The notes under the pieces were generated by a model that worked only from the letters and a program-made list of their open reading frames with translations, did no database searches and was not told the DNA's origin. The position numbers and the translations under genes were made by a program. A stretch of 64,000 nucleotides of DNA from Amycolatopsis granulosa (GTDB lineage Bacteria > Actinomycetota > Actinomycetes > Mycobacteriales > Pseudonocardiaceae): NCBI RefSeq assembly GCF_011758745.1, contig NZ_JAANOV010000001.1, positions 2,046,001-2,110,000 on the forward strand, read 5' to 3'. This document shows positions 34,614 through 50,791 of this stretch, piece by piece. The stretch's first letter is position 1, and each line of letters opens with the position of its first letter.

Positions 34614-34699
34614 GCCCCCAGCGTGCCCCAGCACCACCCGCCGTGCACGGCGGCTCGGAGCGGCAGCCGGCGTCCCCCGGACACGCGCCGCCCGGCGGC

Positions 34700-35749
34700 T
34701 CAGGGCACCAGGACCAGGCGGATCGGGTTGCCCTCCTTCCGTTCCAGGTGTTCCACCGCCGTCACGGCCTCGGCGAGCGGGAACGTGCCACTGATCGAGC
34801 GGCTCCATTCGACGCGGTGGTAGCGGGCCAGCTCGATGAGCTGCTCCACCGCGCCGGGCGGCGACCCGTAGTGGCCGAGCAGGCGCTGCCCGCGGTAGCT
34901 GAACCCGATGCCGTCGGTGACGGTCAGCGGTTTCGGGGTCAGCCCGACGAGCACGAGACGCCCGCCGAGACCCAGGCAGCTCACCGCCTGCTCGCGCACG
35001 GACGGCACCCCGGCCATGTCGAAGGCCACGTCCAGCCCGGCTCCCCCGGTGACGGCGAGGATCTGCTCACGCAGGGTCGGCTCCTCCGGATCCAGGACCA
35101 GGTCGGCACCGAACTCCAGCGCCCGCTTCCGCGCCGCCTCCAGCGGATCGACCGCCACGATCGGCGCCGCGCCGACCAGCCGGAGCAGCTGAACCGCGTG
35201 CGCACCGAGGCCGCCCGCGCCCCAGACGCCCGCCGGCCGCGCGGGCTGGGCCTGCCCGGTGCCGGTGATCGCGCCCCACGGCGTGGACACCGCGTCCGGC
35301 ACGATCGCCGCCTGCACGAACGGCAGGTCGTCCGGGATCGGGATCAGGGTGTGCTGGCTCGCCAGGGCGTATTCGGCCCACCCGCCGTCGTAGTCCACGC
35401 CCCGTGTCCGCACCTGGAGGCAGGGGTCGCGGAACCGGACGCAGTTCGGGCACTGGCCGCACCGCTCACCCGCCTCGAGCGCCACGCGCTGCCCCTCCTG
35501 CCACCGGCCCGGCACGTCCGGCCCGATCGCGTCGATCTCGCCCGCCACCTCGTGGCCGAGGGTCACCGCGGGAGCGTCGAGGAAGAGCGGGGTGAGGCTG
35601 CCGTCGATCAGGTGCACGTCCGACAGGCACACCCCGGCCGCACGGACCTTGATCCGCACCTGTCCGGGGCCGGGTTCGGGTACCGGCACCTCCGTCACGC
35701 CGAACGTGCGCGAACCGATCTCCAGCCGGCCGGCCAGCATGGTGGCCAT
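34700..35749 (-). CDS. Zinc-dependent alcohol dehydrogenase
   Basis: MDR enzyme of 349 residues with both zinc sites: catalytic residues in AGVCLSDVHL and GHEVAGE, structural cysteines in CGQCPNCVRFRDPC near residue 100. The NAD(P) motif is VWGAGGLGAHAVQLL near residue 180. It is of the AdhP/xylitol-like broad group; substrate cannot be set. ATG 35749 has GGAGGACACC upstream; an ATG three codons later is possible. Neighbours give no pathway clue. Confidence 0.9.
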   Translation of the reverse strand: MATMLAGRLEIGSRTFGVTEVPVPEPGPGQVRIKVRAAGVCLSDVHLIDGSLTPLFLDAPAVTLGHEVAGEIDAIGPDVPGRWQEGQRVALEAGERCGQCPNCVRFRDPCLQVRTRGVDYDGGWAEYALASQHTLIPIPDDLPFVQAAIVPDAVSTPWGAITGTGQAQPARPAGVWGAGGLGAHAVQLLRLVGAAPIVAVDPLEAARKRALEFGADLVLDPEEPTLREQILAVTGGAGLDVAFDMAGVPSVREQAVSCLGLGGRLVLVGLTPKPLTVTDGIGFSYRGQRLLGHYGSPPGAVEQLIELARYHRVEWSRSISGTFPLAEAVTAVEHLERKEGNPIRLVLVP

Positions 35750-36257: not shown

Positions 36258-37208
36258 ATGCTCCGCACCGTGGCCAGTGTGCTGGTGGACCGCTCCGCCG
36301 TGTTCGAGTTCGGCGTCGTCTGCGAGGTGTTCGGCCTCGACCGGACCGAGGACGGCGTCCCGCCCATCGAGTTCCGCGTGTGCGGCGAACGCGCCGGTGA
36401 GCCGATCCAGGCCAGCGTCGGCGTTCAGCTGGTCCCCGAACACGGCCTGGACGCGCTCGACGGCGCCGACCTGGTCACGATCCCGGCGGCCACCGTCCGC
36501 GACGAGTACCCGGAGGCGGTGCTCGACGCGATCCGGAAGGCGCACGCGAACGGCGCCACCATCCTGACCGTGTGCAGCGGCGCGTTCCTGCTCGGCGCCA
36601 CCGGCCTGCTCAACGGCCGGCCGTGCACGACGCACTGGAAACACATCGACGACTTCAAGCAACGCTTCCCCGAGGCCTACCTCGACCCGGACGTGCTGTT
36701 CGTCGACGACGGCGACATCATCACCAGCGCCGGCACCGCCGCGGGCATCGACGCCTGCCTGCACCTCGTCCGCCGGGAACTGGGCTCCGCGCCCGCCACG
36801 GCGATCGCCCGCCGCATGGTGGTGCCGCCGCAGCGCGACGGCGGCCAGCGCCAGTTCATCGACCTGCCGATCCCGGAGTCCACAGCGGACAACCTGGAAC
36901 CGGTGCTGTCGTGGATGGTCGAGCACCTCGCCGACGAGCACACCGTCCCGGAGCTGGCCCGGCGCGCGCAGATGTCCGAGCGCACCTTCGCGCGCCGGTT
37001 CGCGGCGGCGACCGGCACCACACCGGTCAAATGGCTGACCACGCAGCGCGTCCTGCACGCCCGCACCCTGCTGGAAACCAGCCGGCTGGGCATCGAGGAG
37101 ATCGCCCGCGAGTGCGGGTTCGGCACGGGAGCCCTGCTGCGGCACCACTTCCGCCGGGTGGTCGGGGTGTCCCCGCACGATTACCGCCGCACCTTCGCCG
37201 CTTCGTGA
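36258..37208 (+). CDS. GlxA/FtrA-type AraC-family regulator with DJ-1/PfpI domain
   Basis: A 316-residue regulator. Residues about 1-185 form a class-I glutamine-amidotransferase-like sensor with ILTVCSGAFLLGATGLLNG near the nucleophile elbow, and residues about 215-312 carry two AraC helix-turn-helices (TVPELARRAQMSERTFARRF and LGIEEIARECGFGTGALLRHHF). Members often control catabolism of nitrogen compounds. The next gene starts 3 nt downstream, so they are cotranscribed. Its own promoter holds a TGCCA/TGGCA palindrome. Confidence 0.92.
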   Translation: MLRTVASVLVDRSAVFEFGVVCEVFGLDRTEDGVPPIEFRVCGERAGEPIQASVGVQLVPEHGLDALDGADLVTIPAATVRDEYPEAVLDAIRKAHANGATILTVCSGAFLLGATGLLNGRPCTTHWKHIDDFKQRFPEAYLDPDVLFVDDGDIITSAGTAAGIDACLHLVRRELGSAPATAIARRMVVPPQRDGGQRQFIDLPIPESTADNLEPVLSWMVEHLADEHTVPELARRAQMSERTFARRFAAATGTTPVKWLTTQRVLHARTLLETSRLGIEEIARECGFGTGALLRHHFRRVVGVSPHDYRRTFAAS

Positions 37209-37211
37209 GGC

Positions 37212-38420
37212 ATGCTGGGCCACGTGACCTACGACGTGACCACCGTCCGCGCACACTTCCCCGCGCTCGCCGAGGGCGCCGCGCACTTCGACGGTCCGGG
37301 CGGATCCCAGGTGCCCGATGTGGTCGGCGAAGCGGTCGCGGCGACCCTGTGCGCGGCGATCGCCAACCGCGGCTCGGTCACCGCCGCCGAACGCCGCGCC
37401 GACCGCATCGTCGCCGACGCGCGCCAGGCCGCCGCCGACCTGCTCGGCGCCCAGCCGGGCGGCATCGTGTTCGGGCGCAGCATGACGCAGCTGACCTACG
37501 ACTTCTCCCGCACGCTGGCGAAGACGTGGCAGGCCGGCGACGAGGTGGTGGTGACCCGCCTCGACCACGACGCGAACATCCGGCCGTGGGTCCAGGCCGC
37601 CCAGAGCCGTGGGGTGACCGTGCGGTGGGCGGACTTCGACCCGGCGTCCGGTGAACTCGCCGTCGAGGCGGTCCGCGGCCTGCTGTCGGACCGCACGCGG
37701 CTGGTCGCGGTCACCGCCGCGTCGAACCTGCTCGGTACCCGCCCGGACATCCCGGCGATCGCCGCCGCGGTGCACGAGGCGGACGCGCTGCTCTACGTCG
37801 ACGGTGTGCACCTGACCCCGCACGCGCCGGTGGACGTCACCGCCCTCGGCGCGGACTTCTACGGCTGCTCCCCGTACAAGTTTTGCGGCCCGCACCTCGG
37901 CCTGGTCGCCGCCGCGCCCGAGCTGCTGGCGACCCTGCACCCGGACAAGCTGGCGCCGTCGACGAACGCGGTGCCCGAGCGGTTCGAGCTGGGCACCCTG
38001 CCCTATGAACTGCTCGCCGGAACCACCGCCGCGATCGAGTTCCTGGCGAACCTCGTCCCGGGCGAAGGCACCCGCCGGGAGCGGCTGCTGCGGTCGCTGA
38101 CCGAGCTGGAGAAGCACGAACAGGCCCTGCTCGACCGGCTCGACACCGGGCTCGCGCAGATCCCGGGCGTGACCCGGTACGGCTCTCCCAGCAGGCACCG
38201 CACCCCGACCGTGCTGTTCTCGGTCGCGGGCGTGCCCTCGCAGGTGGTGTACGAGCGGCTCGCCGCGCGCGGGGTGAACGCGCCCGCGAGCAGCTTCTAC
38301 GCCCTGGAATGCTCCCGCCACCTGGGGCTGGGTGACGCGGGTGCGGTGCGCGCCGGAATCGCGCCGTACACCACGGCCGGCGAGGTCGACCGACTTCTGG
38401 ACGCGGTCCGCGAGCTCTGA
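37212..38420 (+). CDS. Cysteine-desulfurase-like class V aminotransferase
   Basis: PLP enzyme of 402 residues belonging to the cysteine-desulfurase-like group (related to SufS/NifS). The PLP lysine is near residue 223 in GCSPYKFCGPHLG; the N-terminal part reads FPALAEGAAHFDGPGGSQVP. It is not in an iron-sulfur assembly cluster, so it more likely acts on a special substrate. ATG 37212 or GTG 37224 could be the start. It follows the GlxA-type regulator by 3 nt and precedes the NCS1-HyuA-DUF917 locus by 113 nt. Confidence 0.85.
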   Translation: MLGHVTYDVTTVRAHFPALAEGAAHFDGPGGSQVPDVVGEAVAATLCAAIANRGSVTAAERRADRIVADARQAAADLLGAQPGGIVFGRSMTQLTYDFSRTLAKTWQAGDEVVVTRLDHDANIRPWVQAAQSRGVTVRWADFDPASGELAVEAVRGLLSDRTRLVAVTAASNLLGTRPDIPAIAAAVHEADALLYVDGVHLTPHAPVDVTALGADFYGCSPYKFCGPHLGLVAAAPELLATLHPDKLAPSTNAVPERFELGTLPYELLAGTTAAIEFLANLVPGEGTRRERLLRSLTELEKHEQALLDRLDTGLAQIPGVTRYGSPSRHRTPTVLFSVAGVPSQVVYERLAARGVNAPASSFYALECSRHLGLGDAGAVRAGIAPYTTAGEVDRLLDAVREL

Positions 38421-38426
38421 CCGGCC

Positions 38427-38462
38427 GAGGTGCACAGGCGAGCGGGCGAACCTGTGCACCTC
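38427..38462. promoter_or_regulatory. 12-bp inverted repeat before the NCS1-HyuA-DUF917 locus
   Basis: GAGGTGCACAGG (38427-38438) and CCTGTGCACCTC (38451-38462) are perfectly complementary with a 12-nt centre. The repeat lies 7 nt after the stop of the desulfurase-like gene and 5 nt before a -35-like hexamer. It may be a terminator stem or an operator for the PucR protein; there is no T run, which favours an operator. Confidence 0.6.
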
Positions 38463-38467
38463 GCACA

Positions 38468-38533: not shown

Positions 38534-39859
38534 ATGGCCTCGTCAGTCGGTGTCGACGACTACGCCCTGACCAGAGTCCCGGACAGCGCCCGCTACGCCT
38601 GGTGGTCGGTCGCGGTCCAACGGTTCGGTCAGGTCTCCGCGCTGTCCCAGTTCCTGCTCGGCGCCACCATCGGCTTCGGCATGGGGTTCTGGCAGGCGTT
38701 CCTCGCGTTCACGCTGGGCGCGGTCATCCTCGAACTGATCACGATCCTGGTCGGCGTGATCGGCATGCGCGAGGGCCTGTCCACGTCGATGATCGCCCGC
38801 TGGACCGGTTTCGGCCGCGGCGGCTCGGCGCTGATCGGGCTCGCGATCGGGATCAGCCTCATCGGCTGGTTCGGCATCCAGTCCGCCGTGTCGGCGCAGG
38901 GTCTCGTCTCGCTCATCGGCGGCCTGCCGGAATGGGGCTGGGCGCTGGTGTTCGGCCTGGCCGTGACCGCGATCGTGGTGCGCGGCTTCCACTCGATGAC
39001 GTGGACGGCCTACCTCACCGTGCCGGCGTTCCTCATCCTGGTCGGCTGGTCGATCATCTCCGAGCTGTCCAGGCACGACATCGGCGCACTGGTGGCGTCG
39101 GCACCGCCCGGGCCGCAGCTGAGCCTGCTGCAGGGCACCACCCTGGTCGCCGGCGGGTTCATCGTGGGCGCGGTGATCACGCCGGACATGACCCGGTTCA
39201 ACCGCACCACCGGTGACGTGGTCAAGCAGACCCTCGTCGGCGTCACGCTCGGCGAGTACGTCATCGGCATGGCCGGTGTCCTGCTGGCCCACGCGGTGTC
39301 CTCCGCCGAGATCACCACGATCGTCACGTCGTCGGTCGGCTGGGTCGGGCTGCTCATCGTGATCGCCGGCACCATCAAGATCAACGACTGGAACCTGTAC
39401 TCGTCCGGGCTCGGGGTCGTGAACTTCATCGGCACCGTCTCCGGGCGCAAGGCCCACCGCGGCCTGGCCACCGCACTCCTCGGCCTGGCCGGCAGCGTGC
39501 TCGCGGCGGCCGGGATCCTGAGCAAGTTCACCGACTTCCTCACCGTGCTCGGCGTCGCGTTCCCGCCGATCGCCGGGATCATGGTCGCCGAGTACTTCGT
39601 GGTCAAGAAGTGGCGCGGCGACCTGGAAGCGGCGCGCGCCAACGGCACCGTGCCCGAGGACGCACCGCTGTGGGTGCCCGCCACGATCGTGGTCTGGGTC
39701 GCCGCCGCGCTCATCGGCGAGTTCGTCGACTGGGGCCTGCCCAGCATCAACTCGCTGGTCGTGGCGTTCGTGCTGTACGTGGTCGCCGGCAAGCTCGGGC
39801 TGATCCGCGGTGTCGGCCGCAGCCGCACCGCCGACGCCGACCCCATCCCCGCTCACTGA
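38534..39859 (+). CDS. NCS1-family permease (CodB/hydantoin-permease type)
   Basis: Membrane transporter of 441 residues with about twelve helices, NCS1 family. The first helix region reads GQVSALSQFLLGATIGFGMGFWQAF, and the conserved TPDMTRFNRTTGDV loop lies near residue 217. Known NCS1 substrates are cytosine, purines, allantoin and hydantoins (Mhp1 is a sodium-hydantoin permease). AAAGGAGG precedes ATG 38534. The next gene, HyuA-type, begins 22 nt downstream, so the permease probably brings in the substrate of that pathway. The name CodB alone would be misleading, since no cytosine deaminase is nearby. Confidence 0.9.
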   Translation: MASSVGVDDYALTRVPDSARYAWWSVAVQRFGQVSALSQFLLGATIGFGMGFWQAFLAFTLGAVILELITILVGVIGMREGLSTSMIARWTGFGRGGSALIGLAIGISLIGWFGIQSAVSAQGLVSLIGGLPEWGWALVFGLAVTAIVVRGFHSMTWTAYLTVPAFLILVGWSIISELSRHDIGALVASAPPGPQLSLLQGTTLVAGGFIVGAVITPDMTRFNRTTGDVVKQTLVGVTLGEYVIGMAGVLLAHAVSSAEITTIVTSSVGWVGLLIVIAGTIKINDWNLYSSGLGVVNFIGTVSGRKAHRGLATALLGLAGSVLAAAGILSKFTDFLTVLGVAFPPIAGIMVAEYFVVKKWRGDLEAARANGTVPEDAPLWVPATIVVWVAAALIGEFVDWGLPSINSLVVAFVLYVVAGKLGLIRGVGRSRTADADPIPAH

Positions 39860-39881
39860 CACATCCAGGAAAGGAAATCTC

Positions 39882-41432
39882 GTGCGCATCGGCATCGACG
39901 TCGGCGGCACCAACACCGACGCGGTCCTGCTCGACGGGCGCAAGGTGCTCGCCTCGATCAAGACCAGCACCACCGAGGACGTCACCTCCGGCATCGTCGC
40001 CGCGATCAACGGCCTGCAGCAGCAGCGGGCGTTCGATCCGGCCGCGGTGCAGGCCGTGATGATCGGCACCACGCACTTCATCAACGCGCTGGTGGAGGCG
40101 CACCGCCTGGCGCCGACCGCCGCGGTGCGGCTCAGCCTGCCCGCCGGGGCGTCGCTGCCGCCGATGGTGGACTGGCCGCAGCGGCTGGTCGGCGCGGTGT
40201 CCGGGCGCAGCTACCTGGTGCACGGCGGGCACGAGTTCGACGGCCGCCACATCGCCGAGCTCGACGAGGGCGAGCTGCGCAAGGCGGCCGAGGACATGGG
40301 GCAGGCCGGGGTGCGCAGCGTGGCGATCACCTCGGTCTTCTCCCCGGTCAACGCCGAGTTCGAGGCCCGCGCGGCGGAGATCATCGCGGCCGAGCTGCCG
40401 GACGTGGCCATCTCGCTGTCCCACGAGATCGGGCGGATCGGTCTGCTGGAGCGGGAGAACGCGACGGTCATCAACGCGGCGCTGCGTGAGCTGGCCGCGC
40501 ACATCGTGGACGGCCTCGCGGCGTCGGTGTCCGGCGCCGGCATCACCGCTCCGCTGTATCTGAGCCAGAACGACGGCACGCTGATGGACGTCGACTTCGC
40601 CCGCCGCTACCCGGTGGCGACCTTCGCCTCCGGTCCGACCAACTCGATGCGCGGCGCCGCCGTGTTGTCCGGTTTGGACACGTGCGCGGTGGTCGACGTC
40701 GGCGGCACCACCAGCGACGTCGGCGTGCTGCGGCAGGGCTTCCCCCGCGAGGCGACCACGGACGTCAGTGTCGCCGGGATCCGCACCAACTTCCGCATGC
40801 CGGACGTGCTGTCCATCGGCATCGGCGGTGGCAGCCGGGTACGCGGCGGCGCGGGTGACGTCACGGTCGGCCCGGACTCGGTCGGCTACGAGCTGACCTC
40901 GAAGGCACTGGTCTTCGGCGGTGACACGCTCACCGCGACCGACATCGCGGTGGCCGCGGGCCGCGCCGGGATCGGGGACCCGAGCCTGGTCGCCCACCTC
41001 GATCGTGACCTGGTGCGCGCCGCGCTGGACAAGATCGCCGCGGACGTGGCCGACGTGGTCGAGCGGATGCGCACCTCGGCCGAGCCGCTGCCGGTGGTGG
41101 CGGTGGGCGGTGGTTCGGTGTTGCTGCCGGACGAGCTGGCAGACGCCGGGACGGTGCACCGGCCGGAGAACTACGCGGTGGCCAACGCGATCGGCGCCGC
41201 CATCGCGCAGATCGGCGGCGAGGTCGACCGGGTGTACGCGATCGAGCCGGGGCGCCGCGAAGCGGTGGTCGAGGAGGCCAAGCAGGAGGCCGTGGACCGC
41301 GCGGTCGCCGCCGGGGCCAGCCCGGCCTCGGTCGGGATCGTGGACTTCGACGAGGTGCCCATCCCCTACCTGCCCGGCAACGCCACCCGCATCCGGGTCA
41401 AGGCCGTCGGCGACCTGCAGCTGGGAGCGTGA
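39882..41432 (+). CDS. HyuA-type hydantoinase/oxoprolinase subunit, short form
   Basis: ATP-using amidohydrolase subunit of 516 residues (ASKHA fold). It begins MRIGIDVGGTNTDAVLLDG, an acetate/sugar-kinase-like phosphate loop, and has a second DVGGTTSDVGVL near residue 288 and GGGSRVRGG near 319. HyuA subunits of ATP-dependent hydantoinases are about 700 residues and need HyuB, which is absent here. Short forms like this are typically found with DUF917 genes, and in fungi HyuA and DUF917 are fused into one protein. GTG 39882 has AGGAAAGGA upstream. Ring opening of a hydantoin-like compound is the likely role. Confidence 0.88.
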   Translation: MRIGIDVGGTNTDAVLLDGRKVLASIKTSTTEDVTSGIVAAINGLQQQRAFDPAAVQAVMIGTTHFINALVEAHRLAPTAAVRLSLPAGASLPPMVDWPQRLVGAVSGRSYLVHGGHEFDGRHIAELDEGELRKAAEDMGQAGVRSVAITSVFSPVNAEFEARAAEIIAAELPDVAISLSHEIGRIGLLERENATVINAALRELAAHIVDGLAASVSGAGITAPLYLSQNDGTLMDVDFARRYPVATFASGPTNSMRGAAVLSGLDTCAVVDVGGTTSDVGVLRQGFPREATTDVSVAGIRTNFRMPDVLSIGIGGGSRVRGGAGDVTVGPDSVGYELTSKALVFGGDTLTATDIAVAAGRAGIGDPSLVAHLDRDLVRAALDKIAADVADVVERMRTSAEPLPVVAVGGGSVLLPDELADAGTVHRPENYAVANAIGAAIAQIGGEVDRVYAIEPGRREAVVEEAKQEAVDRAVAAGASPASVGIVDFDEVPIPYLPGNATRIRVKAVGDLQLGA

Positions 41433-41434
41433 CG

Positions 41435-42505
41435 ATGCACGAGATCACGATCGACCACCTGGACGACATCGCGCGCGGCGCGGCCATCCTCGGCACCGGC
41501 GGCGGGGGCGACCCCTACATCGGCCGGCTGCTGGCCTCCGCCGCGGTGCGCGACCACGGCCCGGTGCCGCTGGTGCCGCTGGACGAGATCGGCGACGACG
41601 CGGTGGTCCTGCCCGTCGCGATGATGGGCGCGCCCACCGTGATGGTGGAGAAGCTGCCCTCGGCCGAGCAGGTCGGGCTCGCCGCCCGGACCCTGGCCAC
41701 CTACCTGGGCAAGGAACTGACGCACATCGCGTGCGCCGAGGCCGGCGGGGTCAACTCGCTCATCCCGGTGGTCGCGGCGGCGCAGCTGGGCCTGCCCCTG
41801 GTGGACGCCGACGGGATGGGCCGCGCGTTCCCCGAGCTGCAGATGGTGCTGCCCACGCTGTACGGCGTCCGCGCGACCCCGATGTCCATCGCCGACGAGA
41901 AGGGCAACCGCGGCGTCCTGGACACCGTGGACAACCACTGGGCCGAGCGGCTCGCCCGCTCCGCGACGGTCGACATGGGCTGCTCGGCGATGATCAGCAA
42001 CTACGCGATGTCCGGCGCGCAAGCCCGCGAGTCGCTGGTGCCGGGCACCCTGACCCTGTGCGCCGAGCTGGGCGCGCGGGTTCGGCAGGCGCGGGCCGAG
42101 CACGCCGACCCGGTCGCCAGCGTGGTCGAGCGGCTGGGCGGCCGGACGCTGTTCAGCGGCAAGGTCGTCGACGTCGCCCGGCGCACGGTGACCGGGTTCG
42201 CCCGCGGCGAGGCGAAGCTGTCCGGAATGGACGGTGACATGGGCAGCGAAATGGTGCTGAAGTTCCAGAACGAGCACCTGGTGGCCGAACGCGACGGCGT
42301 CCCGGAGGCGTCGGTGCCGGACCTGATCTGCTGCCTGGACCACGAATCCGGGGAGGCCGTCACCACCGAGGGCCTGCGCTACGGCCAGCGCGTCACCGTG
42401 ATCGCCGCGCCCGCCGACCCGCGCTGGCACACGCCGGGCGGGATCGAACTGGCCGGGCCGCGCTACTTCGGCTACGACATCGACCCCGTCGGGGTGTTCG
42501 CGTGA
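41435..42505 (+). CDS. DUF917 (S-methyl-thiohydantoin desulfurase family) protein, copy A
   Basis: A 356-residue soluble protein. Family marks are ARGAAILGTGGGGDPYIGRLL near residue 14, the EAGGVNSLIP segment near 105, DADGMGRAFPELQM near 128, YAMSG near 190 and the ending LKFQNEHLVAERDG...PDLICCLD. Pfam now names DUF917 after an S-methyl-thiohydantoin desulfurase of ergothioneine breakdown; whether this copy has that activity is unknown. ATG 41435 has GGGAG upstream; GTG 41429, overlapping the hyuA stop by 4 nt, is an alternative. Copy B follows with a 4-nt overlap. Confidence 0.85.
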   Translation: MHEITIDHLDDIARGAAILGTGGGGDPYIGRLLASAAVRDHGPVPLVPLDEIGDDAVVLPVAMMGAPTVMVEKLPSAEQVGLAARTLATYLGKELTHIACAEAGGVNSLIPVVAAAQLGLPLVDADGMGRAFPELQMVLPTLYGVRATPMSIADEKGNRGVLDTVDNHWAERLARSATVDMGCSAMISNYAMSGAQARESLVPGTLTLCAELGARVRQARAEHADPVASVVERLGGRTLFSGKVVDVARRTVTGFARGEAKLSGMDGDMGSEMVLKFQNEHLVAERDGVPEASVPDLICCLDHESGEAVTTEGLRYGQRVTVIAAPADPRWHTPGGIELAGPRYFGYDIDPVGVFA

Positions 42506-43596
42506 GCTGGACGCTGACCGAGGAACACCTCGAAGACCTCGCGCGCGGTGCGGCCGTGCTCGGCACCGGAGGCGGCGGCGACCCGTACGTCGGGCGGCTG
42601 CTGGTGCGGCAGGCGATCCGCGAGCACGGGCCGGTCACCGTCCTCGACCCGTCCGAGGTCGGCGACGAGGACCTGGTGGTGCCGACCGCGCAGATGGGCG
42701 CGCCGACCGTGGTGCACGAGAAGCTGCCCAGCGGCGCGGAACCGGTGCTGGCGCTGCGCACGCTGGAGAAGCACCTCGGCAGGCGGGCGAGCGCGACCAT
42801 GCCGATCGAGTGCGGCGGGATCAACTCGATGATCCCGCTGGTCGTCGGCGCGCGGCTGGGCCTGCCGGTGGTCGACGCGGACGGGATGGGCCGCGCGTTC
42901 CCGGAACTCCAGATGGAGACGTTCGGCGTCTACGGCGTGCCCGGGTCGCCGATGGCCATCGGCGGGGAGCGCGGTGAGACCACGGTGATCGACACCGGGA
43001 CCGACAACCGGCGGATGGAGTGGCTGGCCCGCGGCATCACGATCCGGCTCGGCGGGGTGGCGCACATCGCCGAGTACGCGATGAGCGGCGCCGAGGTCAA
43101 GCGCACCGCGGTGCCGCGCACGTTGTCGCTGGCGCTGACCGTGGGACGCACGATCCGGGAGGCGCGGGAACGCAACCTCGACCCGGTGGCGGAACTGGGC
43201 ACGGCGCTGGGCGAGACGCTGTACGGCCACCTGCGCGTCCTCTTCCGCGGCAAGGTGTCCGATGTGGAACGCCGGACCGAGGCGGGCTTCGCGCGCGGCC
43301 GCGCGCAGGCGACGTCGTTCGACGGTGACCACAAGCTGGAGCTGCTGTTCCAGAACGAGAACCTGCTGGCACTGGTCGACGGCGAGGTGCGCTGCCTGGT
43401 ACCGGACCTGATCTGCGTGCTGGAGTCGGAGTCGGGCGAGCCGATCACCACGGAGACGCTGCGCTACGGCCAGCGGATCGTGGTGGCCGGGATTTCCACC
43501 CCGCAGCTGATGCGCACCCCCGAGGCGCTGGCCACCTTCGGACCGGCCGCGTTCGGCCTGCCCTACGAATTCACCCCCGTGGAGGAACTGCAATGA
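42502..43596 (+). CDS. DUF917 protein, copy B
   Basis: A 364-residue paralogue of copy A, with the same landmarks (ARGAAVLGTGGGGDPYVGRLL, IECGGINSMIP, DADGMGRAFPELQM, YAMSG, LLFQNENLLALVDG). By eye about half the residues match copy A. Differences include His-Ile-Ala-Glu before YAMSG where copy A has Met-Ile-Ser-Asn, so the active sites may not be identical. Start GTG 42502 overlaps the copy A stop by 4 nt (GTGA). Two adjacent, coupled paralogues suggest either a heteromer or two steps on related substrates. Confidence 0.85.
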   Translation: MSWTLTEEHLEDLARGAAVLGTGGGGDPYVGRLLVRQAIREHGPVTVLDPSEVGDEDLVVPTAQMGAPTVVHEKLPSGAEPVLALRTLEKHLGRRASATMPIECGGINSMIPLVVGARLGLPVVDADGMGRAFPELQMETFGVYGVPGSPMAIGGERGETTVIDTGTDNRRMEWLARGITIRLGGVAHIAEYAMSGAEVKRTAVPRTLSLALTVGRTIREARERNLDPVAELGTALGETLYGHLRVLFRGKVSDVERRTEAGFARGRAQATSFDGDHKLELLFQNENLLALVDGEVRCLVPDLICVLESESGEPITTETLRYGQRIVVAGISTPQLMRTPEALATFGPAAFGLPYEFTPVEELQ

Positions 43597-44303
43597 ATCT
43601 GACCGAGCGCACCGTGGTGATCATCGGCGGCGGATCGGGGATCGGGTTCGAGGTGGCGCGCCGCGCGGCGGACGCCGGCGCCCACGTGTTCCTCGGGGGC
43701 CGAACCGAGTCGACCCTGGCGGCCGCGGCCGAGAAGATCGGTGCGCAGTGGCACGTCGTCGACAACACCGACCAGGACTCGCTGGCCGAGTTCTTCGGCG
43801 CCGTGCCGCGCGTGGACCACCTGTTCACCCCCGGCGCTTCCTACCGCACCGGGCCGATGCGCGAGCTGTCCGACGAGGACGCGGCGAGCCCGTTCGTCAC
43901 GAAGTTCTGGGGCCAGTACCACGCCGTGAAGCACGCCGCCCCGAAGCTGTCCCCGGACGGGTCGGTGGTGCTGATGTCCGGTGCGGCGAGCGTCCGGCCG
44001 CCCGGGCCGGCACCCGCGTACATCGCGTGCAACGCGGCGATCGAAGGGCTCGGCCGCGGGCTCGCGGTGGAGCTGGCACCGGTGCGCGTCAACGTCGTCG
44101 CGCCCGGCACGATCGACGGGAACCTGTGGTCGCAGCGGCCCGCCGAGGTGCGTGAGGCGAGCTTCGCGCAGTACCGGTCGGACACCGTGCTGCACCGCGT
44201 CGGCCTGGAGTCCGAAGTGGCCGACGCGGTGCTCTACCTGTTCGGCGCCACCTTCACCACGGGTTCGACGCTCTACCCGGACGGCGGCTACTCGTTCCGC
44301 TGA
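43593..44303 (+). CDS. SDR-family protein with Asn in place of the active-site Lys
   Basis: Short-chain dehydrogenase/reductase fold of 236 residues. The NAD(P) motif is [19 protein letters not shown] at residues 8-26. The catalytic region has Ser near residue 129 (LMSGAAS) and Tyr 143, but four residues on, where Lys is expected (YxxxK), there is Asn 147 ([11 protein letters not shown]). The C-terminal [13 protein letters not shown] is normal. Loss of the Lys usually abolishes or changes activity. The ATG overlaps the stop of DUF917 copy B by 4 nt, tying it to the pathway. Confidence 0.9.
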
Positions 44304-45097
44304 ACCGGCACGCGGTACTCGCTGTCGGCGCGGTCGGTGATGAACATGTGGCCGGGCGAGTGGGTGATCGCGAACGGTGGTTTCGACGCCATCAGCGCCG
44401 CCTGCGGCGTGACCCCGCACGCCCAGAACACCGGTACGTCACCGGGGTCCGCCTCGACCGGTTCACCGAAGTCGGGGCGGCCCAGGTCGGCGATCCCGAG
44501 CTCCCCGGGGTCGCCGACGTGCACCGGTGCGCCGTGCACCGCCGGCATCGCCCCGCTGATCGCGACGGCCTCGCCGACCAGGCCGGCCGGGATCGGGCGC
44601 ATCGACACGACCAGCGGGCCGTGCAGCCGCCCGGCCGGGCGGCACCGCCGGTTCGTCACGTACATCGGCACGTTGCGGCCCTGCTCCAGGTGCCGCAGCG
44701 GGACGCCGGCGGCACGCAGTCCGGCCTCGAACGTGAAGCTGCATCCGATCGAGAACGCGACCAGGTTCTCCTGCCACAGGCCGCTCACGTCCTCGACCTC
44801 CTCGGCCAGCTCGCCGTGCCGCCACACCCGGTACCGGGGCAGGTCCCGGCTCAGGTCGGCGCCCGGCGCGAGCACCGTCGAGGTGTCACCCGGGTCGGTC
44901 ACGTCGAGCACCGGGCACGGCCGTGGGTTGCGCTGGCAGAACAGCAGCACGTCGTAGGCCCAGTCGCGCGGGACGGCGATCAGGTTGGTCTGCGTGAAGC
45001 CGGGAGCCCATCCCGACGTCGGCGCCACGGTCCCGGCGCGGAACGCCGCGCGCGCCTGCTCCGGTGAGGTGGTCGCCGGATCGTCTACCCTGGTCAT
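44288..45097 (-). CDS. D-glutamate cyclase / DUF1445 (putative hydro-lyase) family protein
   Basis: A 269-residue protein of the DUF1445 family, related to YcsI and to the mitochondrial D-glutamate cyclase domain that turns D-glutamate into 5-oxo-D-proline. Marks are [28 protein letters not shown] near residue 31, [13 protein letters not shown] near 115, [12 protein letters not shown] near 141 and [29 protein letters not shown] near the end. Bacterial members are largely uncharacterised. It runs against its neighbours: its end overlaps the SDR end by 16 bp, and its start is 29 nt from the divergent third DUF917 gene. Confidence 0.85.
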
Positions 45098-45126
45098 GCC
45101 CTCCAGCTCAGCACACGAAGGCCGGC

Positions 45127-46191
45127 ATGCGCATCACCGCGGCGGACGTTCCCGCACTCGAACGGGGTGTCGCGCTGCTCGGCTCCGGCGGGGGCGGTGA
45201 CACGATGACGGCGGCGGCGCTGCTGCGCCAGCACGTGATCCACGGGCGCGAACCCGAGGTTCCCGCCGCACTGGACCCGGCGACCCCGGTCATGCCGGTC
45301 GGCATCGCCGGCTCGACCGCGGCCTTCACCGAAAAACTGCCGAGCGGGTCGGAGTTCGCGACCGCGGTGTCCGCCCTCGAACGCTGGACCGGCGCCCGCG
45401 CCGGCGCCCTGATGTCGATCGAGATCGGCGGCCTCAACGGGCTGGTGCCGCTGGTGGCCGCCGTCGAGCTGGGCCTGCCGTGCGCCGACGCCGACCTGTC
45501 CGGACGCGGCCTGCCGCGGCTGGACCAGCTCGCCATCGCCGCGGCCGGCCGCGGTCTCGCCCCGGCCGCGCTCGCCGAGCCCGGCGGGCAGGTGCTGCTG
45601 CTGGCGGCCGGACCGGACGAGGCGATCGAACGCAGCGCCCGCACGTTCGTGGCCGGTTCCGGTGGCTGGGCGGCGATGGCGTTCGCCCCGGTGCCCGCCG
45701 GTGAACTGCCCGGGTGCGCCGTCATGGGCAGTGTGCGCGCGGCGCTGGAGCTCGGTAGGCGCGTGCTCGCGGCCGGGGAGAGCCCGGACCCGGACCGGCT
45801 CGCCGCGGCCTCCGGCGGGCAGGTGCTGGCGATGGGCCGGGTGCTGGAGGTGTCCAGGCACGTCGGCCCCGGGCGGCACGGCAGCGCCGGGTTCGGCCGC
45901 GGCAGCGCCACCCTGACCGACCACCGCACCGGCGCGCTGCTGCGGCTGGAGATGGAGAACGAGTACCTCCTCGCGCTGCGCGACGGGCAGCCGGTGGCCT
46001 CCACGCCGGACGTGCTCGCCGTCGTCGACCACCGCACCGGGGTCCCGGTGTCCTGCGACACGATCCGCGCCGGGATCGAGGTCGACGTGCTGCGCCTCGC
46101 CGCGGCGCCGTTCTGGACCGATCCGCGGCGGCTGCCGGTGCTGGAGCCGCGCGCCTACGGCATCGACTGCGATCCGGTGCTCGCACCATGA
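45127..46191 (+). CDS. DUF917 protein, divergent copy C
   Basis: A 354-residue DUF917 relative. It keeps [27 protein letters not shown], a DAD, the [10 protein letters not shown] strand and [13 protein letters not shown]...PDVLAVVD, but where copies A and B have DADGMGRAFPELQM it has [15 protein letters not shown], and the YAMSG region is absent. It may therefore bind a different ligand or act as a partner subunit. ATG 45127. The stop overlaps the PucR start by 4 nt, so regulator and copy C are cotranscribed from the promoter facing the DUF1445 gene. Confidence 0.8.
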
Positions 46192-47684
46192 TCCTGCGCC
46201 GACTGCTGGCCCTGCCGTCGTGGGCCGCCGACGTCCGGGTCGTCGCCGGGCGGTCCGGGCTGGACGGTCCACTCAAGACGGTCCGGGCGACCCTGGACGC
46301 CGCGGACAGCCCGGGCCCCGGCGAGCTGCTGGTGCTGGCCCGCGAACTGCGCGGCACGGACTGGCAGATCGACGCCCTGCTGCGGCGCGGCGCCGACAGC
46401 GGCGCGGCCGGCCTGCTCCTGCCGGAGGTCGACCCGCAGACCGCGACCCGGCTGCTGGCCGACCGGCTGGCGATGCCGCTGCTGGTGACCTCCGCCCGGC
46501 CACTGGACCTGCTGGTGGACGCCCGGCTCATGCTCGCCGCGCCGGACCTGGACCGGGCGAACCTGGTGCTGGCGACGCACCGCGCGCTCGGCGAGCGGCC
46601 CCGGTCGCCGGAGGAGGTCGTGGCGGCGCTGCGCGGGCTGCTGCGGTCGCCGGTGGCGCTGCTGGACGACCGGGGCGAGCCGGTGGCCGGGGAGCTGCCG
46701 TCGGCCGGACGACTCCGGGTGGCCGAGCCGGTGCCGCAGCGCGTCGAGCTCGACGACGGTGTCCTGCTCGCGCATCCCGCGCTGCTGGCCGGTCCGGTGC
46801 TGTGGGTGGCGGCCGAGCTGACCGGGGTGCACGCGGCGCGCGCGGACGTCGTGCCGCCCGCGCTGGCGGTCGCCGCCGGCGCGGTGCAGCGGTGGCTGCT
46901 GGCGAACCGGCTGGAGCTGGAGCGGGACGCGCGGTCGCGGACGGCGCTGCTCGGTGATCTGCTCCGGCTGGACGCCGAGCCCGGCGCGGACCTGCGGCGG
47001 CGCGCGGCCGACGCCGGGTGGCGGCTGGGCGGCTGGCACGTGGGACTGCGCATCGGCGTACCGTCCGGTGTGGACACCGTGGCGCGGACGACCGAGGTGG
47101 TGCGCGCGCTGCGGGCGGAACAGATCGAGGCCGTGGTCGTCGAGCACGGCGACGGGTGGACCGGGTGGGTGACGTTCGACCAGGAGCCGACGGCCCAGCG
47201 CGTGCGCACGCTGGCGACCCGGCTGCGCGCGGCGCACAAGGCGTTGCGCCGCACCCTCGGCTCACACCTCGGGGTCGGCCGGCCGCACCCGCAGCCGGAC
47301 GGCCTCGCGGCGACGGTCGCCGAGGCCACCGACGCCGCCCGGCTGGCCGCGACCCGACCCGAGTCGGGGCACTTCCTGCACGTGGACCAGCTCGGGATGG
47401 CGCAGCTGCTGCTGGAGTGGACGCGCACCGACACGTTCGAGCCGGCGGCACGGGCACTGGTCGCACCGTTGCGCGGTGCGCCCGGTGACCTGGTGCGCAC
47501 CCTGGCCACCTACCTGGACGCGGAATCGTCGATCGCCGAGACCGCCGCCGTGCTCGGCGTGCACCGCAACACGGTCGCGGCGCGGATCGCCCGCATCGAA
47601 CAGCTCCTCGGGGTGGACCTCTCCCGCCCGGACGACCGTCTCGCCCTGCACCTCGCCTCCCGCGCCATCACCCTCGGCGACTGA
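46188..47684 (+). CDS. PucR-family transcriptional regulator
   Basis: A 498-residue regulator. Residues about 1-125 form the PucR ligand domain (LLALPSWAADVRVVAG), the middle has a GGDEF-like degenerate domain, and the C-terminus has the PucR helix-turn-helix SIAETAAVLGVHRNTVAARIARIEQLLG near residues 445-472. PucR proteins usually activate genes for purine, allantoin, hydantoin or amine breakdown in response to the substrate. It is translationally coupled to DUF917 copy C and is the obvious regulator of the whole 38.5-46.2 kb locus. Confidence 0.92.
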   Translation: MILRRLLALPSWAADVRVVAGRSGLDGPLKTVRATLDAADSPGPGELLVLARELRGTDWQIDALLRRGADSGAAGLLLPEVDPQTATRLLADRLAMPLLVTSARPLDLLVDARLMLAAPDLDRANLVLATHRALGERPRSPEEVVAALRGLLRSPVALLDDRGEPVAGELPSAGRLRVAEPVPQRVELDDGVLLAHPALLAGPVLWVAAELTGVHAARADVVPPALAVAAGAVQRWLLANRLELERDARSRTALLGDLLRLDAEPGADLRRRAADAGWRLGGWHVGLRIGVPSGVDTVARTTEVVRALRAEQIEAVVVEHGDGWTGWVTFDQEPTAQRVRTLATRLRAAHKALRRTLGSHLGVGRPHPQPDGLAATVAEATDAARLAATRPESGHFLHVDQLGMAQLLLEWTRTDTFEPAARALVAPLRGAPGDLVRTLATYLDAESSIAETAAVLGVHRNTVAARIARIEQLLGVDLSRPDDRLALHLASRAITLGD

Positions 47685-47887: not shown

Positions 47888-48841
47888 TCAGCCCTTGAGC
47901 TGGGGCAGCACCTTCGACGACCAGGCGTCGAAGAACTTGTCCTGCTCCGGCCCGATCTGCGACACGTACACCTCGTCGAACCCGGCGTCGGCGAACTGGC
48001 GCACCGCCTGCGCGTGCGCGTCGGCGTCCGGGCCGCACGGGATCTGGCCCGCGACCTGCTCCTCGGTGACCACCGGCACGGCCTGCTCGAAGTCGCGCGG
48101 GGTCGGCAGGATCCGGCCGAGGCTGCCGGGCAGCAGGTCGCTCGCCCACAGCCGGTGCGCCGTCTCGCGGGCCTGGTCGGCCGAGTCGGCCCAGCACACC
48201 TTGAACCCGCCCTGGACCGGCCCGCGGCCACCGGCCTCCCGGTAGGAGTGCACCAGCTCACCGTCGGGCATCACCGTGGCGAAGCCGTCCGCGATCTTCG
48301 CGATCCGGCGCGCGATCCTGGGCCCGAACGCGGACACGTAGATCGGCACCGGCTGCTCCGGCAGGGTGTAGATGCGGGCCTGCTCCACCGTGTAGTGCTT
48401 GCCGTAGTGGGTGATCTCCTCGCCGGTGTGCAGCTTGCGGATCACCTCCACGGCCTCCTCCAGCATCTCCAGCCGCCGCGACCCGGGCGGCCACCGGTCG
48501 CCGAGGATGTGCTCGTTGAGCGCCTCCCCGGAACCGACACCGAGGACGAACCGGCCCTCGCACTGCACGGCCGCCGTCGCCGCGGCCTGCGCGATGATCG
48601 CCGGGTGGATCCGCACCGTCGGGCACGTGACCGCTGTCGTGATGGGCAGCGACACGGCCTGGGACAGAGCACCGATCACCGACCAGACGAACGGGCTGTT
48701 GCCCTGCTCGCCGGTCCACGGGTGGAAGTGGTCGGAGATCCACAACCGCTCGAACCCGGCCTGCTCCGCCTTCTTCGCCTGTTCCACCAGCTCACGGGGC
48801 CCGTGCTCCTCGCTGGACAGGAAATAGCCGACACTCACCAT
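47888..48841 (-). CDS. F420-dependent LLM-class oxidoreductase
   Basis: Luciferase-like TIM-barrel flavin/F420 enzyme of 317 residues, close to the F420-dependent glucose-6-phosphate dehydrogenase branch: VGYFLSSEEHGPRELVEQAKKAEQAGFERLWISDHFHPW in the first 45 residues, and VLGVGSGEALNEHILGDRWP near residue 100. Cofactor F420 is common in actinobacteria. The substrate is not predictable. ATG 48841. It stands alone between the repeat cluster and the STAS gene. Confidence 0.88.
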   Translation of the reverse strand: MVSVGYFLSSEEHGPRELVEQAKKAEQAGFERLWISDHFHPWTGEQGNSPFVWSVIGALSQAVSLPITTAVTCPTVRIHPAIIAQAAATAAVQCEGRFVLGVGSGEALNEHILGDRWPPGSRRLEMLEEAVEVIRKLHTGEEITHYGKHYTVEQARIYTLPEQPVPIYVSAFGPRIARRIAKIADGFATVMPDGELVHSYREAGGRGPVQGGFKVCWADSADQARETAHRLWASDLLPGSLGRILPTPRDFEQAVPVVTEEQVAGQIPCGPDADAHAQAVRQFADAGFDEVYVSQIGPEQDKFFDAWSSKVLPQLKG

Positions 48842-48863: not shown

Positions 48864-49184
48864 TCACCGCTCACGCACCGTCGCCAACGGCTCGAAGCCG
48901 GACATCATCAGGACCCGGCGCACGGGTGAGGCGGGTGCCACGATCAGGTCCAGACCCATCTGCAGCACCTTCAGCCTCCCGGCGAGCGTGAACAGCACCC
49001 GCAGACCGGAACTGTCCAGATAGGTCACGTCGGTGAGGTCGATCGAGACGTGTGACGCGTCGTTGCCGATGGCGGAGAAAACCTGTTCCTGGACGAGGTC
49101 GGCGTTGGCCAGGTCGATCTCGCCGCTGACCGTCAGCACCACGTGCCCGCCGTCGTGCTCCGCGTCGATGGTCGCCGTGGTCAT
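48864..49184 (-). CDS. STAS-domain anti-sigma factor antagonist
   Basis: A 106-residue STAS protein of the RsbV/SpoIIAA type. The phosphorylatable serine is in TYLDSSGLRVLF near residue 57. Unphosphorylated, such proteins bind an anti-sigma kinase and free its sigma factor; a PP2C phosphatase returns them to that state. ATG 49184 overlaps the stop of the upstream phosphatase/kinase fusion by 4 nt, so the switch components are made together. No sigma factor gene is present in the window. Confidence 0.92.
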   Translation of the reverse strand: MTTATIDAEHDGGHVVLTVSGEIDLANADLVQEQVFSAIGNDASHVSIDLTDVTYLDSSGLRVLFTLAGRLKVLQMGLDLIVAPASPVRRVLMMSGFEPLATVRER

Positions 49185-50791
49185 TGCGCTTGCCCGTCCA
49201 CGATCGTCCGGCGAATCATGACCTCCGTCCCCTGGGGCCGATGGTCGATGCGGACCTCGTCCCCACAGCGGTGCATCAACAGTGTCCCGCGGCCGCGGTT
49301 CTCGCCGCGCGGGGGACGCCAGCGGCCCTCGTCGCACACCCTGGCGATTACGTCGGACCCGTGCCGGTCAAGCTGGACGCGGACCACGCCGCCGGCCGGC
49401 CCGTAGGCGTGCTCGACCGCGTTCGAGGTGGCCTCACCGACCGCGACCAGCAGGTCGGACGTGGCGTCCGGGCTCGCCCCGACGAGGTTCAGCCACCGCC
49501 GCATCGCGGAGCGGACCTCCTTCAGCGACTCGGGCACCGCGGGCACGGCGAGGTCCAGCGGGCCGACCTCGCTGCCGTCCTGGCGGCGCACGGCGAGCAG
49601 CGCGACGTCGTCGTCCGGGTTGTCCTCGCCGATCATCGCGCCCATCACGTCGGCGCAGACATCGGTGACCGGCACCGGGCGCACGGCCGCGCACAGGCGG
49701 TCCAGCCCCTCGTCGAGCGGGACACCGCGTCGTTCGACGAGGCCGTCGGTGTAGAAACAGACGACCGAGCCGGGCGGGATGTCCACCACGCTCACCCGGC
49801 GCCGCACGTCCCGCAGCGCCCCGATCGGCGGGTCGACGGCGACGTCCAGCAGCCGGGCCGGTTCCCCGACGCGGCCCTGGACCGGCACCAGGTGGCCGGC
49901 CGAGGACACGTGCAGCCGCTCGAAGTTCGGCTCCACCACCGCGTAGAGCACGGTCGCCATCATGCCCGGCTCGAAGTGCTGCATCTTGCGGTCGAGGTTG
50001 ACGAGCACCTCGGCCGGGTCGCCGCCCTCCAGAGCGAACGCCCGCAGGGCACTGCGCATCCGGCCCATGACGATCGCGGCCGGCAGGCCGTGCCCGACGA
50101 CGTCACCGATCACCACGCCGAGCCAGTTGTTCGGCAACAGGAACACGTCGTACCAGTCGCCGGCGATCGCACCCTGGTCCCCGGGGACGTAGCGGGCGGC
50201 GAGCTCGAGCCCCGGGACGACCGGCAGCTTGCTCGGCAGCAGGCTGCGCTGCAGCTCGGCCGCCGCGGCCCGCTCGGCCTGCGACCGCTGGGCGTGCGCG
50301 GCCAGCGCGATCCGGTCGGCGGCCAGCTGGAGCAGCTCGACGTCCTCCGGGGTGAACTCGCGCTTGCTCAGCGTGCCGACGTGCAGCACACCCAGCGGTT
50401 CACCACCGACCAGCAGCGGAACCCCCAGCAGGGTCTGGATGCCCTTCTCCCACAGCAACCGGTTGACCACCGTCGTGGAGTCGACCCGCTGCAGCTGCAC
50501 CGGTTCACGGCGCGCGACCACCTGCCCCGCGAAACCCTTGCCGACCGGGACCCGCACGCCCTGCGCCACCTCGGTTTCGATGCCGCGCGCGGCGACGGCG
50601 AGGAGCTCGCGGCCGCCCGGTTCGAGCAACAGCACGGCCGCGGTGTCGGTGTGCAGGACCTGGCGCACCCGGTCCAGCAGCTCGGTCAGCAGGTCCTCGG
50701 CGGCCAGGTGGGCCAGCGCGCTGTCGCTCACGAGACCGATGCGCTGCAACTTCTGCTCGGCTTGCAGGCGCGTGCTGGCCGATGTGGACAT
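49181..50791 (-). CDS. GAF-PP2C(SpoIIE)-HATPase fusion, RsbU/RsbW-like
   Basis: A 536-residue signalling protein. Residues about 20-165 are a GAF sensor, residues about 185-395 a PP2C/SpoIIE phosphatase (GDWYDVFLLPNNWLGVVIGDVVGHG and EDNPDDDVALLAV), and residues about 410-530 an anti-sigma-type ATPase (VGEATSNAVEHAYGP, then GRGTLLMHRCGDEV). Thus the phosphatase and the kinase that act in opposite directions on a STAS protein are on one chain. The STAS partner is the next gene with a 4-nt overlap. ATG 50791. Confidence 0.92.
   Translation of the reverse strand: MSTSASTRLQAEQKLQRIGLVSDSALAHLAAEDLLTELLDRVRQVLHTDTAAVLLLEPGGRELLAVAARGIETEVAQGVRVPVGKGFAGQVVARREPVQLQRVDSTTVVNRLLWEKGIQTLLGVPLLVGGEPLGVLHVGTLSKREFTPEDVELLQLAADRIALAAHAQRSQAERAAAAELQRSLLPSKLPVVPGLELAARYVPGDQGAIAGDWYDVFLLPNNWLGVVIGDVVGHGLPAAIVMGRMRSALRAFALEGGDPAEVLVNLDRKMQHFEPGMMATVLYAVVEPNFERLHVSSAGHLVPVQGRVGEPARLLDVAVDPPIGALRDVRRRVSVVDIPPGSVVCFYTDGLVERRGVPLDEGLDRLCAAVRPVPVTDVCADVMGAMIGEDNPDDDVALLAVRRQDGSEVGPLDLAVPAVPESLKEVRSAMRRWLNLVGASPDATSDLLVAVGEATSNAVEHAYGPAGGVVRVQLDRHGSDVIARVCDEGRWRPPRGENRGRGTLLMHRCGDEVRIDHRPQGTEVMIRRTIVDGQAQ

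Follow-up and report, generated by a model that had tools for sequence, protein, structure and literature searches.

How might a bacterium open a nitrogen-containing ring with the ATPase half of a HyuA/HyuB-type enzyme in a locus that has no gene for the other half? The question is raised by an eight-gene locus in a 64,000-nucleotide stretch of the genome of Amycolatopsis granulosa, an actinobacterium of soil type (hereafter the window; G+C content 72%; part of a 5.62-Mb single-contig genome), which encodes an NCS1-family permease, a short HyuA protein, three DUF917 proteins (DUF917-a, -b and -c), an SDR-family oxidoreductase, a D-glutamate-cyclase-family protein (DUF1445) and a PucR-type regulator (Table 1). 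A preliminary description of this DNA had proposed a dedicated system for the import and ring opening of a nitrogen heterocycle or cyclic amide, and the gene content supports that view: the operon probably serves to take up a cyclic nitrogen compound and to open its ring at the expense of ATP. With moderate confidence, we propose that the locus encodes an ATP-dependent cyclic-amide hydrolase made of two parts, with HyuA activating the ring carbonyl and DUF917 replacing HyuB; we infer both the chemistry and the substrate. The pairing of HyuA with DUF917 and a predicted operator upstream of the permease gene proved of more interest than the pathway first drawn.

Short HyuA genes lie beside DUF917, full-length ones beside HyuB

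The HyuA protein of the window has the N and A domains (PF05378 and PF01968) of HyuAB-type N-methylhydantoinases and 5-oxoprolinases, and it covers positions 1 to 211 of the 291-position Hydantoinase_A profile rather than its full length. Unlike the loci of those enzymes, this one gave no match to the HyuB domain (PF02538), separate or fused, in a profile search, which confirms the earlier remark that HyuA stands here without HyuB. A genome search found three HyuA genes in A. granulosa, the short one of the window and two full-length ones, and each of the full-length genes adjoins one of the two HyuB genes of the genome. Among the matches listed, the nearest named relative of the short protein is from Amycolatopsis tucumanensis (98%).

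DUF917 is present in 76 of 200 genomes of the same family, and we examined the pairing in 20 of these 76. Removal of 7 fragmentary or weak rows from the 92 HyuA rows (among them G113:C1:95373, at 1.3 kb from a DUF917 gene) left 85, which were classed as full length when the Hydantoinase_A profile match extended to position 286 or beyond (n = 62) and as short when it ended at positions 173 to 212 of 291 (n = 23). Neighbors were defined as genes within 3.5 kb, from match start to match start. All 23 short HyuA genes were near DUF917 and none was near HyuB. Among the full-length genes, 59 of 62 were near HyuB, 3 were near neither, and none was near DUF917, with the proviso that the DUF917 list ended at weak matches, so that a low-scoring DUF917 neighbor of a full-length HyuA could have escaped. 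The genomes had been selected for the presence of DUF917, and selection alone does not create such a pairing. HyuB gave zero matches in two of the 20 genomes (G012 and G100), both of which carry short HyuA.

We then scanned public genomes with HyuA peptide patterns, obtained at least 577 relatives and used the best 80 named loci, a set that partly duplicates the same-family one (L127 and L053 are one contig). In 75 of these 80 loci, a same-strand DUF917 gene lay no more than 600 nt from the match to short HyuA. As the search used HyuA peptide patterns only, DUF917 adjacency was not built into it.

Several actinobacteria have a second, lower-scoring HyuA adjoining another DUF917. In L047, L049, L064, L115, L119, L125, L132 and L134, such a HyuA and its own DUF917 lie upstream of NCS1-HyuA-DUF917, by a divergent PucR-type gene. 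No fused HyuA-DUF917 protein was found among the six-frame open reading frames (ORFs) of 129 loci.

Properties of the short HyuA and DUF917 proteins

Both phosphate motifs of the ATP site (DVGGTxTD and DxGGT[TS]xD) are present in all 61 aligned short HyuA homologues. The structure model of the window HyuA (predicted local distance difference test score, pLDDT, 91.8) matched the N-methylhydantoinase 9h03, the ATP subunits of acetone and acetophenone carboxylases and the caprolactamase subunit CapA, with TM scores over the query of 0.72 to 0.79 in six of seven chains (0.79 for CapA, 6yra) and 0.64 in the seventh. The window system resembles caprolactamase CapAB of Pseudomonas jessenii (6yra) in the fold of its ATP subunit, in the phosphate motifs and in the logic of a two-gene enzyme, and the two would also share the opening of a cyclic amide ring, proposed here for the window system. 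They differ in that CapB, a HyuB-type protein with a metal site, is absent from the locus and DUF917 stands in its position; compared with the CapA chain, the window HyuA is also approximately 175 residues shorter, and it has no GxxPGP adenosine motif. In caprolactamase the ATP site is in CapA and the metal site in CapB, CapB metal-ligand mutants are inactive, and an activated lactim is proposed to pass from A to B for hydrolysis (excerpts of PMC8453981). If short HyuA performs the first half of such a reaction, the second half needs another protein, and DUF917 is the only near-constant neighbor.

Below an E value of 0.001, the only PDB relatives of the DUF917-a model (pLDDT 96.0) detected by Foldseek were two chains of 2o3i, an uncharacterized DUF917 protein (fold match E 2.3e-25). 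Across 260 DUF917 sequences, near-duplicates included, nine polar positions were at least 95% conserved (E74, E104, N109, D126, D128, R132, E173, R177 and E282). DUF917-a, -b and -c retain all nine, so none of the three looks dead. A carboxylate-rich active site in DUF917 would differ from the Asp-His-Asp-His site of HyuB. DUF917 was also considered as a homologue of HyuB and rejected, as profile comparison with four HyuB sequences gave a probability of 0.1%; HyuB was not among the best 50 of 842 Foldseek matches of the DUF917 model in the PDB.

The three proteins share with the (S-methyl-)thiohydantoin desulfurases of ergothioneine breakdown the S-Me-THD N and C domains (PF06032 and PF20906), and the two matching NCBIfam models, NF058532 and NF058529, both named for those enzymes, cover most of their length. 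They differ from the desulfurases in being tied to HyuA and a permease and in their scores, which for DUF917-a, -b and -c were 109, 85 and 68 bits against a cut-off of 450 and 72, 80 and 61 bits against one of 440. Four further DUF917 proteins were also far below these equivalog cut-offs. The scores argue against the separate removal of a ring substituent by a thiohydantoin desulfurase that had been proposed at first, and the thiohydantoin route is not supported.

Part of PMC11055893 calls DUF917 proteins not experimentally characterized and guesses at hydantoinase activity. Excerpts of PMC12915319 report permease, DUF917 and hydantoinase genes of Clostridioides difficile with consecutive locus tags and same-direction changes; a cytosine permease, DUF917 and a hydantoinase are among the genes that distinguish Lactobacillus rhamnosus strains (excerpt of PMC7513527), and a deletion in the intergenic region that separates PucR and DUF917 genes is described in Eubacterium limosum (excerpt of PMC9503626). 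The open-access passages on DUF917 do not propose HyuA-DUF917 as one enzyme, and earlier subscription reports may exist.

Conserved unit and distribution

Conservation was assessed in 38 regions of 16 to 20 kb around DUF917 genes, one per same-family genome. Module genes were counted by six-frame profile search; accessory counts come from gene calling and may be low. The preliminary description had staked its reading on a neighborhood kept in relatives, and we found strong conservation: a good-scoring HyuA was present in 36 of the 38 regions, a same-strand adjacent DUF917 in 35, and NCS1, HyuA, DUF917 and a PucR-type gene together in 29 (including L035 and L069, where NCS1 is distant). The commonest order was NCS1-HyuA-DUF917(-DUF917)-...-DUF917-PucR, and the order DUF917-c-PucR is retained in many relatives.

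The other genes of the locus followed a narrower distribution. A D-glutamate cyclase gene lies beside the module in 7/38 regions and a class V aminotransferase gene (AT5) in 8/38, all from the same genus, although AT5 also precedes NCS1 in a Nonomuraea locus (L086). The SDR gene is mostly confined to the same genus and is missing from many relatives that have the core; in other genera the interval between DUF917-b and -c is short or filled differently, for example with a GH1 glycosidase in L036. SDR, D-glutamate cyclase and AT5 being found mainly in close relatives, they are not needed for the core function. Thus, the conserved unit consists of a permease, a short HyuA (516 aa in the window) and at least one DUF917, usually with a PucR-type regulator, and is smaller than first described. 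The D-glutamate/5-oxoproline exit of the preliminary description falls outside this core, and a search for PxpA found two genes of that family elsewhere in the genome.

The best 80 loci span Actinomycetota, Chloroflexota, Acidobacteria, Alpha- and Gammaproteobacteria, Bacillota, Thermaceae and two archaea. Compact versions include PucR-NCS1-DUF917-HyuA on a Lactiplantibacillus plasmid record and a 569-kb Listeria record, and NCS1-DUF917-HyuA on a Sodalis plasmid record and in Planococcus, where the permease is annotated as two pieces. A Parageobacillus plasmid record has one permease flanked by two HyuA-DUF917 pairs. ATP-binding cassette (ABC) import replaces NCS1 in some relatives, such as those of Rhizobium, Aureimonas and Haloferax: 38 of the 80 loci have NCS1, 24 have at least two ABC transporter genes, none has both, and 18, some of them short contigs, have neither.

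A class V aminotransferase gene also lies near the Planococcus module (L073). In L140 (1411-4654), a partial HyuA of the full-length type precedes the HyuB gene that stands before short HyuA. HyuB lies directly before short HyuA in L146 (1113-4349) as well, on a contig too short to judge further upstream.

Permease and candidate substrates

The analogy with Mhp1 drawn at first for the permease is not supported, as the only solved relative found at E values up to 1 was the cytosine permease CodB (7qoa). Among 74 aligned NCS1 entries (the window entered twice), the substrate-stacking Trp of CodB was kept in all. In contrast, the cytosine-binding Gln105 aligned with Leu in 64 entries and with Gln in none, and Thr278 of the sodium site aligned with Lys in 70 (residue roles from excerpts of PMC9379551). 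Both cytosine as substrate and sodium coupling are therefore doubtful, and the Lys suggests sodium-independent, perhaps proton-coupled transport.

Units of only three genes suggest a product that general metabolism can take up without a further dedicated enzyme. A dipeptide or an amino acid would be such a product; for an N-carbamoyl amino acid, a carbamoylase would be required. Some relatives have Opp-type peptide import genes. Near the module we counted 13 Asp/Glu/hydantoin racemase genes against ~1.7 expected and 6 M19 dipeptidase genes against ~0.7 expected, relative to a rough background from 16 genomes hand-picked partly for carrying those genes, with non-independent loci and with inputs that were rounded (67 in place of 68 racemase rows above the cut-off, and 85 in place of 84.3 Mb). 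The window locus itself has no gene of either kind. In 7 of the 80 named loci (L094, L101, L110, L123, L126, L131 and L135), the large subunit of an XDH-type molybdenum hydroxylase is encoded; enzymes of this xanthine dehydrogenase type form ring carbonyls adjacent to nitrogen.

Diketopiperazine-cleaving strains are reported in Leifsonia, Microbacterium, Rhizobium, Bacillus, Paenibacillus and Streptomyces, and their ring-opening enzymes are called unknown (excerpt of PMC3852281). Of these genera, Leifsonia, Microbacterium, Rhizobium and Streptomyces have HyuA-DUF917 modules, in strains other than those reported. According to a passage of PMC6061476, some genes annotated as oxoprolinase may encode cyclic dipeptide hydrolases of the CapAB type. 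DUF917 and hydantoin racemase are enriched in cyclodipeptide-oxidase clusters, together with peptide transporters (part of PMC11055893); the window locus differs from these clusters in that no nitroreductase-family gene is among the Pfam matches around it, and the nitroreductases beside some relatives are only remotely like albonoursin synthase. Taken together, gene neighborhoods and literature make cyclic dipeptides, or a near relative, a plausible substrate class. No direct match to the module was found in passages of PMC4617892 (on nitrogen limitation) or PMC6733357; the latter suggests lactam opines for a HyuA/HyuB type on a Ti-plasmid.

The nitroreductase-family gene beside some relatives was tried as a cyclodipeptide oxidase and discarded, its best PDB matches being other nitroreductases (albonoursin synthase E 0.098).

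A predicted operator upstream of the permease gene

Enough sequence upstream of NCS1 was available in 73 of 75 loci, and removal of near-identical sequences left 61. The exact motif GTGC-N5-GCAC occurs in 27 of these 61 upstream regions, compared with a mean of 0.84 and a maximum of 3 in 100 dinucleotide shuffles; with one mismatch allowed, it occurs in 40, against 15.5 (maximum 23). Other spacers of 1 to 12 nt between GTGC and GCAC gave 0 to 2 upstream regions, and GTGC ranked first of the 256 palindromic tetramers with N5 (27, runner-up 8). The exact motif is absent from 34 of the 61, including loci of Lactiplantibacillus, Listeria, Parageobacillus, Desulfosporosinus, Sodalis, Archaeoglobus and alphaproteobacteria.

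Tandem copies at 30 to 31 bp, one exact and the other with at most one mismatch, were found 25 times in 2.17 Mb of loci, several of them in near-identical Amycolatopsis sequences: 19 lie before NCS1, 4 by the regulator start and 2 by a DUF917 start. Nine control distance pairs gave 0 to 1 each. Of the two copies in the window, the proximal one is exact and the distal one has two mismatches, which places the window outside this count of 25. Within the A. granulosa genome, the tandem pattern with up to two mismatches occurs at 6 places and a backwards control at 15. The pattern is thus not unique there, and the case for the operator rests only on comparison between genomes. On that comparison, tandem GTGC-N5-GCAC marks a predicted promoter of the module in many actinobacteria. 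The exact motif was found in 24 of 48 loci with a PucR-type gene and in 3 of 13 without, and the PucR-type regulator is the putative operator-binding protein.

An inverted repeat at 38426-38438/38451-38463, considered as a terminator of the upstream aminotransferase gene (z -3.2), overlaps the two operator copies; we do not claim it as a terminator, although it may also serve as one.

A proposed mechanism and its alternatives

In the mechanism that we favor, the operon would catabolize one small cyclic amide, namely a lactam, a hydantoin-like ring or a cyclic dipeptide, which the NCS1 permease would import. Short HyuA would bind ATP and activate the ring carbonyl, in the simplest case by forming a phosphorylated lactim, the intermediate proposed for CapA, and DUF917 would take over and hydrolyze the activated ring, the role of metal-containing HyuB or CapB in the classical enzymes. 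The two proteins would form a complex, in which DUF917-a and -b may be different partners of one HyuA or parts of a mixed assembly. The PucR-type protein, perhaps with DUF917-c, may sense the compound and act at the operator. Thiohydantoin desulfurases hydrolyze at a ring carbon to which a leaving group is already attached, so that a phospholactim made by HyuA would be the same kind of substrate for DUF917. The strict pairing of short HyuA with DUF917 is also easier to reconcile with a single enzyme than with two steps in series.

Several observations weigh against this proposal. The adenosine motif GxxPGP, present in both full-length HyuA proteins of A. granulosa, is found in 0 of 61 short ones, whose use of the nucleotide could therefore differ. 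DUF917 has no detectable homology to HyuB in the profile comparison, and no His or Cys is conserved among the 260 DUF917 sequences, where the near-invariant polar positions are all occupied by E, D, N or R; the metal site of HyuB is thus not reproduced. DUF917 proteins named desulfurases are not known to need HyuA for their activity. Moreover, DUF917 is not adjacent in 5 of the 80 named loci: L131 has none in the available stretch, L123 and L128 have it on the opposite strand at distances of 3.8 and 2.8 kb, a ROK gene separates HyuA from a same-strand DUF917 in L146, and L118 has HyuA, a racemase, an Opp-type transporter and then DUF917, all in one direction. Finally, HyuB immediately precedes short HyuA in 2 of the 80 (L140 and L146).

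Should the proposal be correct, it would assign a role to DUF917, a large and mostly uncharacterized family, and an unrelated protein would have taken the place of the hydrolytic half in enzymes of the HyuAB type. The compact, sometimes plasmid-borne module with its predicted operator would be easy to test, and an orphan activity, in which enzymes open the rings of cyclic dipeptides or similar cyclic amides, would become directly testable. A broader version, tentative and in our judgment rather unlikely, is that short HyuA-DUF917 represents an unrecognized class of ATP-dependent cyclic-amide hydrolases in bacteria, archaea and plasmids, with HyuB replaced by a non-homologous protein, and that its main natural substrates are cyclic dipeptides, which would make it the missing enzyme of diketopiperazine breakdown.

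Could DUF917 and HyuA instead act in series, DUF917 as a desulfurase removing sulfur or another ring substituent and HyuA then opening the resulting hydantoin? The names of both matching NCBIfam models point that way, as do OsmC and a cysteine-synthase-like pyridoxal phosphate enzyme in the L077 operon and the TIGR01976 cysteine-desulfurase-like gene upstream in the window. We consider this improbable in view of the low equivalog scores of the window and further DUF917 proteins, the exclusive pairing of DUF917 with short HyuA across the 20 genomes and the small number of loci with sulfur-related neighbors; HyuA would also still be without HyuB. Least probable to us is a 5-oxo-D-proline/D-glutamate module in which D-glutamate cyclase and HyuA act on 5-oxoproline. 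The DUF1445 gene of the locus, the membership of HyuA in the oxoprolinase superfamily and the racemase genes, which occur in 13 of 129 loci, agree with it, but DUF1445 accompanies the module only in relatives of the same genus, and the PxpA-family genes and two HyuAB pairs may already supply oxoprolinase-type activity.

The structural matches of HyuA are to acetone and acetophenone carboxylase subunits as well as to caprolactamase, and luciferase-like monooxygenases and molybdenum hydroxylases are present in some neighborhoods, so that HyuA-DUF917 might be another ATP-dependent enzyme, such as a carboxylase of that type or a ligase, rather than a ring hydrolase. This too appears improbable, since the peptide-type ABC import, racemases and M19 dipeptidases of some relatives suit amino-acid-derived cyclic amides better, and the three-gene plasmid units would leave no dedicated enzymes for a carboxylated product. 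Alternatively, DUF917 may be a sensor or carrier coupled to regulation, with HyuA working alone or with a HyuB encoded elsewhere. The overlap of DUF917-c with the regulator gene, a pair that recurs in relatives, and the HyuB genes of L140 and L146 are in keeping with such a role. It is nevertheless a distinctly improbable one, given that no short HyuA of the 20 genomes is near HyuB, that G012 and G100 carry short HyuA yet gave no HyuB match and that the nine polar residues are kept in all three DUF917 proteins.

Gene organization of the window locus

ORF and Pfam profile checks confirmed all eight genes at the positions given in the preliminary description (Table 1). Pfam scores were well above their cut-offs for NCS1 (87.5 against 23.5 bits), D-Glu_cyclase (220.2 against 25), SDR (115.5 against 27), the two HyuA domains (130.4 against 25.2 and 122 against 22.9) and the N domain of all three DUF917 proteins (128.5 to 199.1 against 27). 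The regulator exceeded the cut-offs for HTH_30 and GGDEF_2; its score for PF07905 (PucR) was 26.8 against a cut-off of 33.5. HyuA starts at the GTG at 39882, directly after AGGAAAGG, which gives 516 aa, and the most likely start of DUF917-c is the ATG at 45127. A gap of 22 nt separates NCS1 from HyuA, and 4-nt overlaps occur at the HyuA/DUF917-a, DUF917-a/-b, DUF917-b/SDR and DUF917-c/PucR junctions. The D-glutamate-cyclase-family gene sits between SDR and DUF917-c in reverse orientation.

TABLE 1 Features of the locus, with positions in the window
Feature	Position	Strand	Predicted role or status	Evidence
Predicted tandem operator	38423..38466	.		Exact GTGC-N5-GCAC at 38454-38466; copy with 2 mismatches 31 bp upstream, 38423-38435
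NCS1-family permease, CodB-like, 441 aa	38534..39859	+	Predicted import	PF02133, 87.5 bits; phmmer CodB 7qoa, E 2.5e-24
Short HyuA, 516 aa	39882..41432	+	Predicted ATPase half of enzyme	PF05378 and PF01968
DUF917-a (S-Me-THD-like)	41429..42505	+	Predicted HyuA partner replacing HyuB	PF06032/PF20906
DUF917-b, paralogue of DUF917-a	42502..43596	+	Predicted second partner	PF06032/PF20906
SDR-family oxidoreductase	43593..44303	+	Optional add-on	PF13561
D-glutamate cyclase family (DUF1445/PF07286)	44288..45097	-	Lineage-specific add-on, strand opposite to core	PF07286, 220 bits
DUF917-c	45127..46191	+	Coupled to regulator gene	PF06032/PF20906
PucR-type transcriptional regulator, 498 aa	46188..47684	+		HTH_30, 77.7 bits; GGDEF_2, 55.1 bits

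The AT5 aminotransferase gene upstream of NCS1 (37212-38420) belongs to the "cysteine desulfurase-like" family TIGR01976, and an AraC/DJ-1 regulator gene (36258-37208) lies immediately before it. A LigD primase-polymerase domain protein is encoded further upstream (33693-34808, minus strand). Downstream of the locus, the minus strand encodes a luciferase-like monooxygenase (47888-48841), a GAF-SpoIIE-HATPase protein (49181-50791) and DNA gyrase/topoisomerase IV A and B (51009-53498 and 53521-54960).

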